Positions 50,101 to 60,993 of a stretch of DNA of 64,000 bases are shown one piece after another (the stretch's first letter is position 1; each line of letters begins with the position of its first letter). Below the pieces are notes generated by a model. That model was not told the DNA's origin. It was given only the letters and a program-made list of their open reading frames with translations, and did no database searches. Made by a program: the position numbers and the translations under genes. Source of the stretch: Phycisphaerae bacterium. Lineage in GTDB: Bacteria > Planctomycetota > Phycisphaerae > UBA1845. The DNA lies in NCBI GenBank assembly GCA_013360585.1, contig JABWBH010000006.1, positions 1 to 64,000 on the forward strand, written 5' to 3'.

Positions 50101-50150
50101 CAGCCCCGAAAGGGGCGCCAGAAAGCAGCCCAGCCCGCCAGGGCTGGGGA
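50101..50150. repeat. Planctomycete-style intergenic palindrome pair
   Basis: cagccccgaaaggggcgcc and agcccagcccgccagggctggg. Confidence 0.55.
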
Positions 50151-50305
50151 TCCCTCTTCCGTTATCCGATGCCCGCCCCTCTCGAACACCCTGACGAACG
50201 CACCCGGATGCCTCTCCGGGACGTCAGGGCGCGATGCATCGCAACTTCAAACACCTCAAGGATGCTGCGCACCGGAGTCGGAGGGAAACTTAGTAGAAAA
50301 AAGAA

Positions 50306-50702
50306 GCAAAGTCGGCGGAGTAAGCCGAATTCTGTCGCGCGCCCTGCTTAGGGACGGGTCGAACCCGTCCTGCGAGGCGTCACGGGCGATCATCCATCTA
50401 GGCCGTCGGTCGCCCGGCGGCTCAAGCGCCCTACCCACAGCTCAACGGGACGGGCCGCCCCTCGCTGCTTACTTGGGCTTGCCGGCGGTGGGGTTTGACC
50501 TGCCACGCGAGTCACCCCGCGCGCGGTGCGCTCTTACCGCACCTTTTCACCCTTACCTTTCGGCGGTGTCTTTTCTGTGCCACTTTCCCTCGGGTCGCCC
50601 CGGGTTGGCGTTACCAACCACCGTGCCCTGCCCGGTTCGGACTTTCCTCACTTCCAGGGGGATCGCTCCCGCCCGAAGCGCGATCGCCTTCGCCGACTTT
50701 GC
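50306..50702 (-). ncRNA. rnpB: RNase P RNA (bacterial class A)
   Basis: Minus strand reads GAGGAAAGTCCGAACCGGGCAGGGCACGGTGGTTGGTAACG..., GGTAAGGGTGAAAAGGTGCGGTAAGAGCGCACC, GTAAGCAGCGAGG, ACAGAATTCGGCTTAC; P1 GCAAAGTCGGCG/CGCCGACTTTGC closes the ends. Confidence 0.97.
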
Positions 50703-56201: not shown

Positions 56202-56233
56202 AAAAAAGGACGCAGCGGGCGTGGCGCTCGTCC
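56202..56233 (-). terminator. Intrinsic terminator at the 3' end of the candidate large ncRNA
   Basis: Minus strand GGACG-AGC-gccacgccc-GCT-g-CGTCC-TTTTTT. Confidence 0.8.
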
Positions 56234-57326
56234 TGCCCTTCAGAGTTTTCAGGCTGCCGGCTCGCACGTCGGGCTTTCCGCCCGGCGGCGTTCTCCTGCA
56301 GGGTTGGCTGCTCGTTCGGAGTTCTCTGACGTGCCGAGGTTACGCGGTTACTGGTTCCGCGTGACCGCCTTGCCGTCAGCCTTTTCCTCGGCTTCGCGGC
56401 TCTGCCTTTGGCGCGCCTGACGGGTCATGTGTTAAGACGCCCGTCCACCCTCCCGTCGAGTTTCGCCCCCTCTTGAAGAAATCCCCCGCAACCCTAGCCG
56501 TCAGCCGAACCTTCCGGTCCGGCCGCCCTGCGCCGGTCCGAAGACCGTCGCAGGTGAGTCCGCATCCGAAGACGCGCGCCCACGGCACCTCTCCTGGGCT
56601 TTTGTCCCCTTCAGCACATGCGGCATCGAGGATCCACCGGACACGGGCCTGTCCACCCGCGTCGTTCCGCCCTCAGGGTTTGATCACCCTCTCGACGGTT
56701 TGCTCTCCTCGAAGCCTCGTCGGCCTTGTTTCGTGCCGACAGCACTCCTGGGGTTCCCCCTTCGGAGCTTTCTCCTCCCGCGAGGTACCGGTTCGTTTCC
56801 GTCCCGGAGCACCCACCTGCCGTTTCTCCCGGCGTTGTTCCCGATCGCCGAAGCGACAGGCCGGCCCGCCGGGCCGCGACTCCTGGGTTTCACCCCTCGA
56901 CGGGAGTCCTCTAACGAACGCCGCGGTATGAGCGCGACGCGCGCCGGATGCTCCCCTGGGTTTCATCCCTCCTGAGGCATCAAGGCGGAAGACCTTGTCC
57001 GGGATTTCGCCCCGACTCCTTCCTCGCGCTTTCGAGCGATCACGCCTTGCGGCCCGACCGTCGCGGCGCCTCGAAGTATCCATCAGCCTCCGCCGCGCTC
57101 CGCTCCGAATTCCGAAGAACGTCGAGCTGGAGCAACCCCTTCAGGGTTTCCGTGCCTCCGCCATCGCCACCGCTCGGCTCGCCCGCTTCCCGGGCTATGT
57201 GTTCACCTCGCGCCCGGACGAACGTCTCCGTCCGCCCCGCCAGCGCCTCTTTGAGAAGCGACCGAACCTGCCTTAGCCGGTGGGACCGCGTTGCGGCACC
57301 GAGCTGCGACACGCCCCCGCGTCGCA
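56202..57326 (-). ncRNA. Candidate large structured non-coding RNA (~1.1 kb), unassigned family
   Basis: No credible CDS; near-consensus promoter and terminator at the ends; many local hairpins and a repeated GGG-loop-CCC-AGGAG module (56586-56620, 56668-56698, 56741-56770, 56816-56833, 56878-56908, 56951-56970). Confidence 0.65.
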
Positions 57327-57331
57327 ATCTC

Positions 57332-57360
57332 ATTATAAACCCCGTTTCAGCGCGAGGCAA
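57332..57360 (-). promoter_or_regulatory. Sigma70-type promoter for the candidate ncRNA
   Basis: Minus strand TTGCCT-N17-TATAAT (-35 at 57355-57360, -10 at 57332-57337). Confidence 0.8.
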
Positions 57361-57428: not shown

Positions 57429-57618
57429 AGCTCTTTGATTTCAACACGGAGCGCCGCGAGGTTTTATCCTTCCCTTTAAGAAAAAAATTTCCGAAAACCG
57501 CTTCTGACAACGAATTCACGGGCGTTGCCGCGGCGGATCCGGCGCAAACCGGGTGCGCCGGGAGGGGCGTCGTGGAGGCGCCCGGGGCGCACCCGACGGA
57601 CACGGGCGTCGCGCGGAA

Positions 57619-57642
57619 GAAGTGTCATGATATTGACACTTC
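57619..57642. promoter_or_regulatory. Operator-like perfect palindrome upstream of sugar ABC operon
   Basis: GAAGTGTCA-tgatat-TGACACTTC, 9-bp perfect arms, ~72 bp before SBP start. Confidence 0.65.
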
Positions 57643-57713
57643 ACGGCCGAACCTTCCGTCCGCTCCGTCATCCGCATTGACCCAGCGGCGGCGCGCTTCT
57701 AGTTTCCGACGAC

Positions 57714-59132
57714 ATGCGCGCGATGGCTCCGAGAGAACCCCTCGTGTCCCGCGGCGCCGCAACGCACCGCACCTTGGCGCTGAGGCTGCTGCGCGCGAGC
57801 GCGATCCTCGTTGCGGGGCTGGCGGTCGCGATGTGGTTGTTCGGCGACACGTGGCGTCATCACTTTCCGGCTGCGGAGAATGCGAACGCGACGGCGGAGA
57901 TCCGTTTTGCGCATTTCGGCGGATATGAGGAGTATGTGCTGTGGCGCGAGGCGATCCAAGCTTTCGAGCGCGAACATCCGCGCGTCCGGGTTCGTCAGGA
58001 ATTCGTGGTGGGCGGTCAGGCGCTTTATCACGGCAAGTTGAGCCGACAGGCGAGCGCTGCGGACCTGCCCGACGTCTTCCTCGTTCAGGCCGGACCCTTT
58101 AACGATCTGGCGGATCAACTTGCGGATGTGGGCGGCGTGTTGAACGCCGTGCCGAATCCGGACGGCCGGTCCGAAGAGATCTCCGAGCTGGACGTTCTCG
58201 GGGTCGAAGCATTCCGGGTGGACGGTGTGCAGCGGGCGCTTCCGGTTTGCGGGGGTCCGCTGCTGATCTACGTCAATCTCGCCTGTTTCGACCGGGCGAC
58301 GCGGTTCCTCGGGTCGGTTGTTCCGCAGCCGCACGAGGACTGGACGATCGACGAGTTCCTCACGATCGCGTCGCAAGCGACGATCCGCGACGCGCGGTTG
58401 GAGGGCGGAGCGCAGTTCGGGTTCTGGCATCCGCGGTGGGTGTATTACCTTCCGTTTTTGTGGTCGTTCGGCGCGGACGTGGGGGACGCACAAGGATGGG
58501 CGCTGGAGGGGGGCGAGGCGGAGTCGGCGCTGACGTTGTATCACGACTTGTTGAGGGTGCATCGCGTGTGTCCCGGGGACGCGGAGCTTCCGCAGGTCTG
58601 GCAGGACGTTGCGTTTCTGACCGGCCGGGTGGCGATGTGCGTTAACGGACCGTGGTTTGAGCGCTTTATCGAAGGCGGCGTGACGGGCGACATCGGCCGC
58701 TTCGACGTTCTGCCGATCCCCCGCGGACCGGGGGGACGCTGGACGCGCGTGACGTGGGACGGCGCGGCGCTGAACCCGTCCACGACCGGCGCGCGCCGAC
58801 GCGCCGCCGAGGCCTTCCTGCGACATCTGCTTTCCGGACCGGTGCAGGACCGCCTTGCGGCGCAAGGTCTGGCGATGCCGGCGCGGCGCGCCTCGCTGGA
58901 CGCCTACGTGACCGGCCCGCGCGCGGCGCAGCGAGCGCGCTTCGTTGAGGCGCTGGCGTACTCGCGGCTTCAACCGCGCTTTCCGCGTTTTCAGGAGGTG
59001 GATCAGCTCTTGAATCGCAGTCTGGATCGGTATCTGAATGAGGCGGATGACCGCAGCGCACGGGAGTTTCTCGCGGATCTTCGGGCGGAGCCGCTGATCC
59101 GCGCGTGTTTCGAGACGGGAGGCGGGTCGTGA
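57714..59132 (+). CDS. ABC transporter extracellular solute-binding protein family 1 (sugar type)
   Basis: N-terminal TM/signal; AEIRFAHFGGYEEYVLWREAIQAFEREHPRVRVRQEFV; TGRVAMCVNGPWF. Confidence 0.9.
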   Translation: MRAMAPREPLVSRGAATHRTLALRLLRASAILVAGLAVAMWLFGDTWRHHFPAAENANATAEIRFAHFGGYEEYVLWREAIQAFEREHPRVRVRQEFVVGGQALYHGKLSRQASAADLPDVFLVQAGPFNDLADQLADVGGVLNAVPNPDGRSEEISELDVLGVEAFRVDGVQRALPVCGGPLLIYVNLACFDRATRFLGSVVPQPHEDWTIDEFLTIASQATIRDARLEGGAQFGFWHPRWVYYLPFLWSFGADVGDAQGWALEGGEAESALTLYHDLLRVHRVCPGDAELPQVWQDVAFLTGRVAMCVNGPWFERFIEGGVTGDIGRFDVLPIPRGPGGRWTRVTWDGAALNPSTTGARRRAAEAFLRHLLSGPVQDRLAAQGLAMPARRASLDAYVTGPRAAQRARFVEALAYSRLQPRFPRFQEVDQLLNRSLDRYLNEADDRSAREFLADLRAEPLIRACFETGGGS

Positions 59133-60136
59133 GCCTTCAGGGTCGCGGAGCGGCGTGGGTGTTCGTTGCGCCTTTCAGCGTCGGGTTCGCGGCGTTGTGC
59201 GCCGGACCGCTGGCGGCATCGTTGTACCTGTCGTTGACCGACGCGTCAGGGGCGTCGGCACGTCGTGCCGAGTATGTCGGACTGGCGAACTACCGGGAAG
59301 CGCTGGGCGTGGACTGGACCGCGCGCGGGACTCCAGCTGCGCCGGGGCCGTGGCTGGCGGGCGACGGACGACCGACGGATCCGCTCGTGTACCGGTCGGT
59401 GGGAAATTCCCTGGCGTACACGGCAATGACGGTTCCGGTGACGCTGGTGATGTCGCTGATGCTGGCGTTGCTGCTGATGCAGCCGGTGCGCGGGTTCACG
59501 ATCGTGCGCACAGTCGTGTATCTGCCGCACCTGCTGGGAGGCGTGGCGTCGCTGGTGATCTGGAGCTGGTTGTTGAATCCTCGTTACGGGGGGCTCAATG
59601 CGGCGATCCGCGCGGCGTACGCCGCCGCCGATCCGCTGGCGCGCGCCACGTTGGGCGTGACGACGGAGGGCTGGCCTGTTCCGGACTGGTTGTTCTCGCC
59701 GGCGTGGTGCAAACCCGCGCTGGTGCTGATCCGCGCGGGGACAGTCGGCGGGAGCGTGCTGATCCTGATGGCGGCGTTGCGGCGTATTCCGCGGGAGCTG
59801 GAAGAGGCCGCGGCGCTGGACGGCGCAGGGGCGTGGATGCGGTTGCGACGCGTCACGCTGCCGCAGTTGCGCCCGGCGCTGGCGTTCGTCGGATTGATCG
59901 AGACGGTGTTTGCAATGCAGGCCTTCACCGAGTCGTACATCTTGAGCCACCGATCTCAGCAGGACGGACTTCTTTTTGCGGCGACCTATCTTTATCGCAC
60001 GGCGTTCGAGTCGCCACACCGGTTGGGATATGCAGCGACGATCGGCTGGATTCTGGCGGGAACGACGGCGGTCGTCGTCGCGCCGTGGCTGGTGTGGGGG
60101 CGGCGACGGGCGGCGCACGAGAAGGGCGGAACCTGA
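59129..60136 (+). CDS. Carbohydrate ABC transporter permease (MalF/UgpA-like)
   Basis: GTG start overlapping SBP stop; LVYRSVGNSLAYTAMTVPVTLVMSLMLALLL; EAA motif EELEEAAALDGAGAWMRLRRVTLPQLRP-like. Confidence 0.92.
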   Translation: MSLQGRGAAWVFVAPFSVGFAALCAGPLAASLYLSLTDASGASARRAEYVGLANYREALGVDWTARGTPAAPGPWLAGDGRPTDPLVYRSVGNSLAYTAMTVPVTLVMSLMLALLLMQPVRGFTIVRTVVYLPHLLGGVASLVIWSWLLNPRYGGLNAAIRAAYAAADPLARATLGVTTEGWPVPDWLFSPAWCKPALVLIRAGTVGGSVLILMAALRRIPRELEEAAALDGAGAWMRLRRVTLPQLRPALAFVGLIETVFAMQAFTESYILSHRSQQDGLLFAATYLYRTAFESPHRLGYAATIGWILAGTTAVVVAPWLVWGRRRAAHEKGGT

Positions 60137-60993
60137 TGCGGCTGTCGCGCGTCATGCACGTGACATCGATCTCGCTGGCGGCGGGGGTCTGCGCGTGGAT
60201 GCTGCTGCCGATGTTGTGGGCGGCGACGTCAGCGTTGAAGCCGCTGGAGGAGACGTATGCTTTTCCGCCGACGTTCCGGACACAATCCCCGCAGCCGGGA
60301 AACTTCGTCGAGGCGTTCCGACGGCTGCCGATGGCGCGGTTCGTGCTGAACTCGACGTGGATCGCGGGGGTGTCGGCGTTCGGCGCGGTGTTGACGTCGG
60401 CGATGGCGGGTTATGCGTTGGCGCGGTTCGAGTTTCGGGGGCGGCGGATCGTCGGCGCGTGTGTGCTGGCGGCGCTGCTGGTTCCGTCGCAAATCCTGAT
60501 CGTGCCGCGGTTCCTGCAATATGAGTGGCTGGGCTGGCTGGGGACGTACAAGCCGCTGATCGTTCCTGCGTGGCTGGGAGGCGGGGCGTTCAACGTGCTG
60601 CTGTTCCGGCAGTTTTTCGTTGCGACGCCGCGGGAGGCGGAGGACGCCGCGCGGCTGGACGGGGCGGGGCCGTGGACGGTGTTTCTGCGCGTGGCGCTGC
60701 CTTCCGTGCGACCGGCGGTCGTCACCGCCTGGTTCCTGAGTTTTGTATTTCACTGGCAGGAGTTTCTTGATCCGCTACTGTATTTGACGGACTTCAAGAC
60801 GTTTCCGGTGTCCCTGGGGTTGCGGATGTTTCAGACGCTGGCGGGAACGTGGGCGAACCTTCTGATGGCGGCGAGTCTGACGGCGATGCTGCCGCTGGTC
60901 CTTCTTTTCCTGATGATGGAGCGCGACCTGATGCGCGGGCTGGGCGTGCTGGCGTCGGTGCGGCGCGGCCGCGAGACGGGCGACCCGGATTGA
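60136..60993 (+). CDS. Carbohydrate ABC transporter permease (MalG/UgpE-like)
   Basis: TGATG overlap; EAA motif PREAEDAARLDGAGPWTVFLRVALPSVRPAVVT. Confidence 0.93.
   Translation: MRLSRVMHVTSISLAAGVCAWMLLPMLWAATSALKPLEETYAFPPTFRTQSPQPGNFVEAFRRLPMARFVLNSTWIAGVSAFGAVLTSAMAGYALARFEFRGRRIVGACVLAALLVPSQILIVPRFLQYEWLGWLGTYKPLIVPAWLGGGAFNVLLFRQFFVATPREAEDAARLDGAGPWTVFLRVALPSVRPAVVTAWFLSFVFHWQEFLDPLLYLTDFKTFPVSLGLRMFQTLAGTWANLLMAASLTAMLPLVLLFLMMERDLMRGLGVLASVRRGRETGDPD

Follow-up and report, generated by a model that had tools for sequence, protein, structure and literature searches.

The 64,000-nt stretch of Phycisphaerae DNA analysed here (the window) carries, within a candidate noncoding RNA on its minus strand, a short GGG/CCC element that a first-pass annotation described as a hairpin module repeated at least six times. 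This raises the question of what kind of gene the locus is and what, in structural terms, is being repeated. Our computational analyses indicate that the ~1.12-kb interval listed first in Table 1 almost certainly represents a real and new family of large structured noncoding RNA. Our final alignment contains 43 distinct homologues, all full length, which span 1076 to 1178 nt including the promoter and share a mean identity of 62% (minimum 48%). The locus is a standalone RNA gene with its own predicted promoter and terminator, and in most of the aligned homologues the promoter and the terminal T-run occupy matching offsets. Specifically, a like promoter precedes the RNA in 38 of the 43, mostly with a 16- to 17-nt spacer, and in 34 of the 43 the −10 box ends 6 to 7 nt short of where the closing helix begins. 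Long open frames do occur on both strands of the region, as they would if this were protein-coding sequence or a chance feature of high-GC DNA. However, the longest stop-free sense stretch per homologue ranges from 56 to 235 codons, and therefore no conserved reading frame is evident. The compensatory changes described below, the fixed offsets of promoter and terminator and the folding energy of the RNA (MFE z = −4.2) also speak against that interpretation, whose probability we consider negligible. In several homologues the strand preceding the T-run pairs better with the 5′ end of the RNA, 1 kb away, than locally (alignment columns 41-47 × 1090-1096). One homologous locus, L009, contains a second terminator-like stretch ~150 nt beyond the RNA terminator that resembles the RNA's own 3′ end (CGCCACGCCCACCGCGTCCTTTTTT) and is perhaps a partial duplication.

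The consensus fold was derived with RNAalifold from a MAFFT alignment of the 43 sequences, made without structural refinement. In this fold the 5′ and 3′ ends pair with each other and enclose a 5′ domain followed by four tandem domains, A to D. Covariation was assessed in the style of R-scape against a home-made null of 20 tree-based simulated alignments; the simulated identity (0.55) is below that observed (0.65), and the resulting E-values are thus approximate. At E ≤ 0.05, 31 column pairs were significant. Canonical pairs of the model account for 27 of these, including pairs of the 5′-3′ closing helix, and the remaining four comprise three A.A/G.G loop flanks and one G.A/A.G extension of a hairpin stem. 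A scan of column pairs returned no extra canonical stacks indicative of pseudoknots. For Domain C, pair counting gave 97.6%, compared to 32 to 47% for slid versions, and none of 500 shuffles reached any of five measures. The fold was also examined in 25 distant homologues that played no part in deriving it, which come from other families and are 53 to 62% identical to sequence L012. In these, 77% of positions were paired versus 38 to 48% for slid versions, a figure that is probably a lower bound because the alignment of the variable arms is rough at such distance. The domain-closing helices were 86 to 100% paired in the same sequences, with many double changes. Domains A to D fold differently from one another, and the modules have only short motifs in common. 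The RNA also contains near-invariant sequence blocks, such as CAAACCCTG and GGTGAA..ATAGCCC. The alignment already provides a fold of sufficient quality for planning cryo-EM, probing and knockout experiments.

Table 1. Positions in the window of the predicted RNA gene, its domains, the 3x3 internal loops and the GGG/CCC modules (cols, alignment columns; like-purine, A.A or G.G)
Feature	Position	Strand	Remarks
~1.12-kb noncoding RNA	56202..57325	-	predicted start to T-run; 43 distinct full-length homologues, promoter-to-terminator model
Predicted sigma70 promoter TTGCCT-17-TATAAT	57332..57360	-	sole promoter-like site in region, 0.1 expected
Terminal T-run TTTTTT	56202..56207	-	T-run near 3′ end in 41/43 homologues
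Closing helix P1, 5′ strand GCGACGC	57319..57325	-	cols 41-47 x 1090-1096, 92% paired on average; 46x1091 significant
Closing helix P1, 3′ strand	56207..56213	-	immediately before T-run
5′ domain, conserved GGTGAA...ATAGCCC strand	57152..57299	-	cols 66-212, covarying helices
Domain A, closed by CCCT/AGGG	56966..57146	-	cols 218-404; 94% paired in near set
Domain B, closed by CCC/GGG	56757..56961	-	cols 409-612
Domain C, closed by YCCC/GGGR	56606..56753	-	cols 616-764; 97.6% of cells paired
Domain D, closed by GCCC/GGGC	56235..56599	-	cols 771-1068; 99% paired, compensatory changes
Loop I1	5′ strand 57140..57142, 3′ strand 56971-56973	-	both flanks switch AA<->GG
Loop I2	5′ strand 57070..57072, 3′ strand 57023-57025	-	like-purine 98-100%; AA<->GG in distant set
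Loop I3	5′ strand 56955..56957, 3′ strand 56761-56763	-	like-purine 98-100%
Loop I4	5′ strand 56881..56883, 3′ strand 56816-56818	-	like-purine 100%
Loop I5	5′ strand 56747..56749, 3′ strand 56610-56612	-	inner flank GG 35/AA 6
Loop I6	5′ strand 56691..56693, 3′ strand 56672-56674	-	GG 21/AA 20/CA 2
Loop I7	5′ strand 56593..56595, 3′ strand 56239-56241	-	flanks AA 43/43, GG 42/43
Loop I8	5′ strand 56472..56474, 3′ strand 56297-56299	-	outer flank GG 28/AA 11
Loop I9	5′ strand 56454..56456, 3′ strand 56315-56317	-	like-purine 93-98%
Loop I10	5′ strand 56393..56395, 3′ strand 56369-56371	-	flanks AA 30/GG 7, AA 25/GG 15
Module 1, joint	56951..56969	-	GGG closes Domain A, GAA linker, CCC opens Domain B + 5′ half of I3
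Module 2, branch point in Domain B	56880..56896	-	AGG of helix cols 464-474, CCCA of helix cols 481-485
Module 3, 3′ strands of two stacked I4-arm helices	56816..56833	-	long-range 87-99% with covariation; local 52%
Module 4, joint	56745..56760	-	GGG closes Domain B, CCC opens Domain C
Module 5, string (~56,680)	56671..56689	-	within true hairpin
Module 5, hairpin carrying loop I6	56667..56698	-	CCGTC-3x3-AGGGT...ACCCT-3x3-GGCGG; 99.5% paired
Module 6, joint	56591..56609	-	GGG closes Domain C, GCCC opens Domain D + 5′ half of I7

The first-pass annotation had read the GGG/CCC elements as a tandem array of small hairpins with AGGAG tails exposed for binding of a protein or of the anti-Shine-Dalgarno sequence. 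Part of its description holds. All six quoted strings lie on the minus strand where it placed them, at a spacing of ~65-80 nt; the noncoding RNA is present and modular, with module sequences that differ while the architecture is kept, and homologues retain both the elements and this architecture. A pattern modelled on that description (GGG, a short A-containing spacer, then CCC[AT][AG], with overlapping matches counted) occurs eight times in the 1130-nt transcript, whereas 1000 dinucleotide shuffles gave 0.5 on average and never more than 7. Besides this nonrandom pattern, thermodynamics favours local hairpins when the single sequence is folded (local pair probabilities of ~0.2-0.46, with domain-closing pairs near 0), so a hairpin reading was the natural one. 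The homologues, however, show that a G-rich/C-rich stem forms at only one of the six places, the true hairpin at ~56,680. Across the 43 sequences, local stem pairing at modules 1, 2, 3, 4 and 6 is 54%, 56%, 52%, 81% and 76%, respectively, and the bases flanking the GGG/CCC triplets are mostly mismatched locally, without covariation. In contrast, long-range alternatives for the same bases are 87 to 99% paired with compensatory changes, as at columns 470 × 588 (CG, GC, GT, AT and TG) and 485 × 553 (AT in 31 sequences, GC in 12). In module 2, both long-range helices covary (APC 48.5 and 46.9) and no local helix does. Most of the GGGs close one domain, and the next CCC opens the following domain.

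The proposed check of compensatory changes between species therefore favours long-range helices over a row of independent hairpins. The outer stems that had been drawn around at least two of the modules (GACTCC/GGAGTC and GATG.CTC/GAG.CATC) are not conserved, with several of their pairs forming in only 7 to 25 of the 43 sequences. Nor do the AGGAG tails hang free: they make up the 5′ strands of 3x3 internal loops together with the helices that follow, which are ~95-100% paired. Three looser relatives of the module, noted at 57131-57155, 56441-56475 and 56233-56257, are halves of the cassettes described below. Since covariation overrules thermodynamics, we conclude that the local-hairpin reading is wrong for five of the six modules, and an array of hairpins with exposed tails is very improbable. 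The triplets are nearly invariant, and for this reason transient local GGG/CCC pairing during transcription is possible. The case also carries a caution, that energy-based folding picks the wrong local hairpins in this RNA.

What actually repeats is a cassette of one helical turn, consisting of 4 to 5 bp, a symmetric 3x3 internal loop and another 4 to 5 bp, present in about ten copies. Cassettes run from 57146 to 56235, well past the 56586-56970 interval to which the repeat had been assigned. Each comprises 11 to 13 layers, or about one turn of an A-form helix. Nine 3x3 internal loops appear in the RNAalifold consensus, the tenth, I7, being drawn with a central pair, and no other size of two-way loop recurs more than four times. 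In 86 to 100% of sequences the outer and inner oppositions of these loops are A.A or G.G. The exception is the inner flank of I8, the weakest loop, where only 51% are like-purine and many sequences have gaps. Moreover, the two kinds of opposition exchange for one another. The flanks of I1, for example, are AA in 22 sequences and GG in 15, and GG in 22 and AA in 18, respectively, and the flank of I6 is the top-scoring noncanonical covarying pair. A C.A opposition is also present at I1, I6 and I10. All four two-flank combinations occur at I1 and I10, indicating that each flank pair obeys the like-purine rule by itself. When all column pairs were scanned for AA/GG exchange blind to the fold, the seven top-scoring pairs were loop flanks and others scored lower; parsimony on the RNA tree assigned 5 to 12 joint changes to each of these seven. 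In the distant set (n = 25) all ten loops retain mostly like-purine flanks, with exchange at I2 (GG 10/AA 6), I6 (GG 14/AA 10) and I10 (GG 12/AA 6). This repeated exchange is a clear signal of non-Watson-Crick covariation.

Like-purine exchange has precedent at single sites. A.A can replace G.G, apparently isosterically, at G48.G71 of the HIV RRE and at a few rRNA positions; those are isolated pairs, whereas the planctomycete RNA has about ten loops in a regular cassette. Three known internal-loop motifs were also considered and rejected. In a kink-turn, an asymmetric 3-nt bulge precedes tandem sheared G.A/A.G pairs, and the loops found here are symmetric, 3x3, and flanked by like-like A.A or G.G. 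Tandem G.A motifs consist of G.A/A.G oppositions and UAA/GAN motifs place UAA opposite GAN; the flanks found here are AA or GG at the frequencies given above, again with the inner flank of I8 excepted. A search of open-licence papers for a large planctomycete RNA or for A.A/G.G loop covariation returned nothing matching. We tentatively raise the possibility, to which we give somewhat less than even weight, that the roughly ten one-turn cassettes with their like-with-like purine code embody a new RNA building principle, a three-dimensional module that would dock arms within or between molecules. If so, this would be a recurrent three-dimensional module absent from current motif lists, with arms docked into a large particle.

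The RNA belongs to a family absent from Rfam 15. A search of the whole window at gathering thresholds left it without a match, permissive filters applied to the RNA region returned no family (best unrelated E of 2.1), and three homologous loci gave none at E ≤ 0.1. Memberships of the OLE, ROOL, GOLLD, raiA, HEARO, group II intron and rRNA families were each rejected, there being no match to their Rfam 15 models. The size and complexity of the RNA and its near-invariant blocks are reminiscent of natural ribozymes, and a large ribozyme or catalytic core in which the cassettes serve as architectural struts would be one explanation. However, no Rfam ribozyme model matched and the invariant stretches are mostly parts of scaffold helices and loops, so we regard a ribozyme as improbable. 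A replacement of a missing housekeeping RNA was likewise rejected. RNase P class A RNA, tmRNA and SRP RNA are structured housekeeping RNAs of the same genome, RNase P within the window, and their Rfam models do not match the RNA described here; since each has its own separate locus, this RNA replaces none of them. The RNase P class A RNA lies at 50304-50700 (-) of the window, with a match to the Acido-Lenti-1 sRNA just downstream of it, at 50102-50148 (-).

By its predicted features, a long independent unit with extensive covarying structure and no conserved ORF, the locus resembles the large ornate noncoding RNAs. Most likely, then, it encodes a structural RNA of large size, of the same general kind as OLE, ROOL and GOLLD and unrelated to them in sequence. 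These three RNAs are homo-oligomers by cryo-EM, ROOL and GOLLD forming nanocages and OLE a dimer of parallel helix "pipes" with an unusual set of symmetric A-A pairs between its chains (PMC12286853). Like OLE, the planctomycete RNA is a large, ornate, standalone bacterial noncoding RNA with conserved structure. OLE, however, occurs mainly in Gram-positive extremophiles, and its A-A pairs join separate molecules, in contrast to the like-purine pairs described here, which lie in intramolecular 3x3 loops. The likeness to ROOL and GOLLD is that of very large ornate RNAs. ROOL has been described as linked to phages and located close to tRNA islands; the planctomycete RNA has neither a phage link nor an adjoining tRNA. 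Searches of 50,697 phage records and of plasmid records gave no homologue, and a lone pattern match on a viral contig is a chance match without RNA homology, so the phage or prophage trait of ROOL and GOLLD does not extend to this RNA. OLE is ~600 nt long (PMC9723947). At ~1.12 kb, against roughly 600-660 nt for OLE and ROOL, the planctomycete RNA is the longer and would be one of the largest structured noncoding RNAs of bacteria, those of the ribosome aside.

Planctomycetota are known for unusual cell biology, and the predicted RNA is kept across several of their classes. A DNA search matched it in 26 of 60 related genomes. A degenerate pattern scanned over 85,488 species genomes yielded 43 stretches, nearly all from MAGs labelled Phycisphaerae, Phycisphaerales or Planctomycetota. 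We also built a covariance model, R1, from the 170-nt core at Domain C. Among 400 genomes of the class R1 matched 41, every one within the window's order, and among 114 genomes of that order it matched 49 (~40%), the match in G040 and a second match in G293 being weak. A phylum-wide sample added 33 genomes from families outside the window's class, and in one other class the RNA was present in 15 of 17 genomes and in all nine of good quality. Presence within the window's own family is patchy, which implies that the RNA is nonessential there. The RNA tree largely agrees with family labels f2, f4, f5 and f8, and f1 is split. As a rule there is a single copy per genome. Second core matches were found in three large planctomycete genomes (G450, G549 and G576), and two copies from two-copy genomes (L171 and L174) are too diverged for a full-length sequence model. 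In one exact-pattern scan of genomes, the RNA was not found outside Planctomycetota. The pattern matches in Myxococcales (L041), Anaerolineae (L058) and Gammaproteobacteria (L075) show no homology beyond the pattern itself, with an alignable stretch in L058 of only 54 nt (E 8e-4). Since ~2 such matches are expected, as estimated from the number of specified bases, these three are consistent with chance.

Neighbouring genes are common within clades and different between clades, with none linked to the RNA in all clades, and the RNA is an independent gene and not part of an operon. A PIN-PhoH gene immediately precedes the RNA on its own strand in eight loci of the near set, family F0 (among them L142, L145, L146, L148, L155, L157 and L177), and RnpA lies upstream, transcribed away from the RNA, in three (L151, L153 and L154). 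These RNA-related neighbours in two clades, together with repeated, near-identical purine loops whose regular spacing suits repeated recognition, are what might be seen if the 3x3 loops were about ten similar sites for one RNA-binding protein, that is, if the RNA were a protein-dependent RNP scaffold, as is OLE with its partners. PIN-PhoH and RnpA genes, however, are ordinary bacterial genes, neither is universal among the loci and no gene is linked in every clade; we consider such an RNP scaffold rather unlikely, if worth keeping in view.

On balance we lean towards a structural RNA scaffold or machine that folds by itself. A large structural noncoding RNA would be transcribed from its own promoter. 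In the consensus fold its first nucleotides base-pair with those just ahead of the T-run, which closes the molecule, and inside lie the 5′ domain and the four consecutive domains A to D, with a cassette at the base of each domain. The like-purine loops would reshape the groove locally at regular intervals and, by extrapolation from the sequence pattern, these distortions may allow arms to pack against one another or against further copies of the same RNA, giving a compact scaffold or machine. A single structure would explain the RNA and also supply a rule for reading other RNAs.

On the side of the predicted promoter, a divergent ABC transporter operon encoding a solute-binding protein and a permease lies at 57714-60993 (+). 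It also adjoins the RNA in a near relative (L140) and not at the other loci examined. An operator-like inverted repeat, AAGTGTCAATATCATGACACTT, at ~57618-57645 (-), lies between the RNA promoter and the gene for the solute-binding protein.
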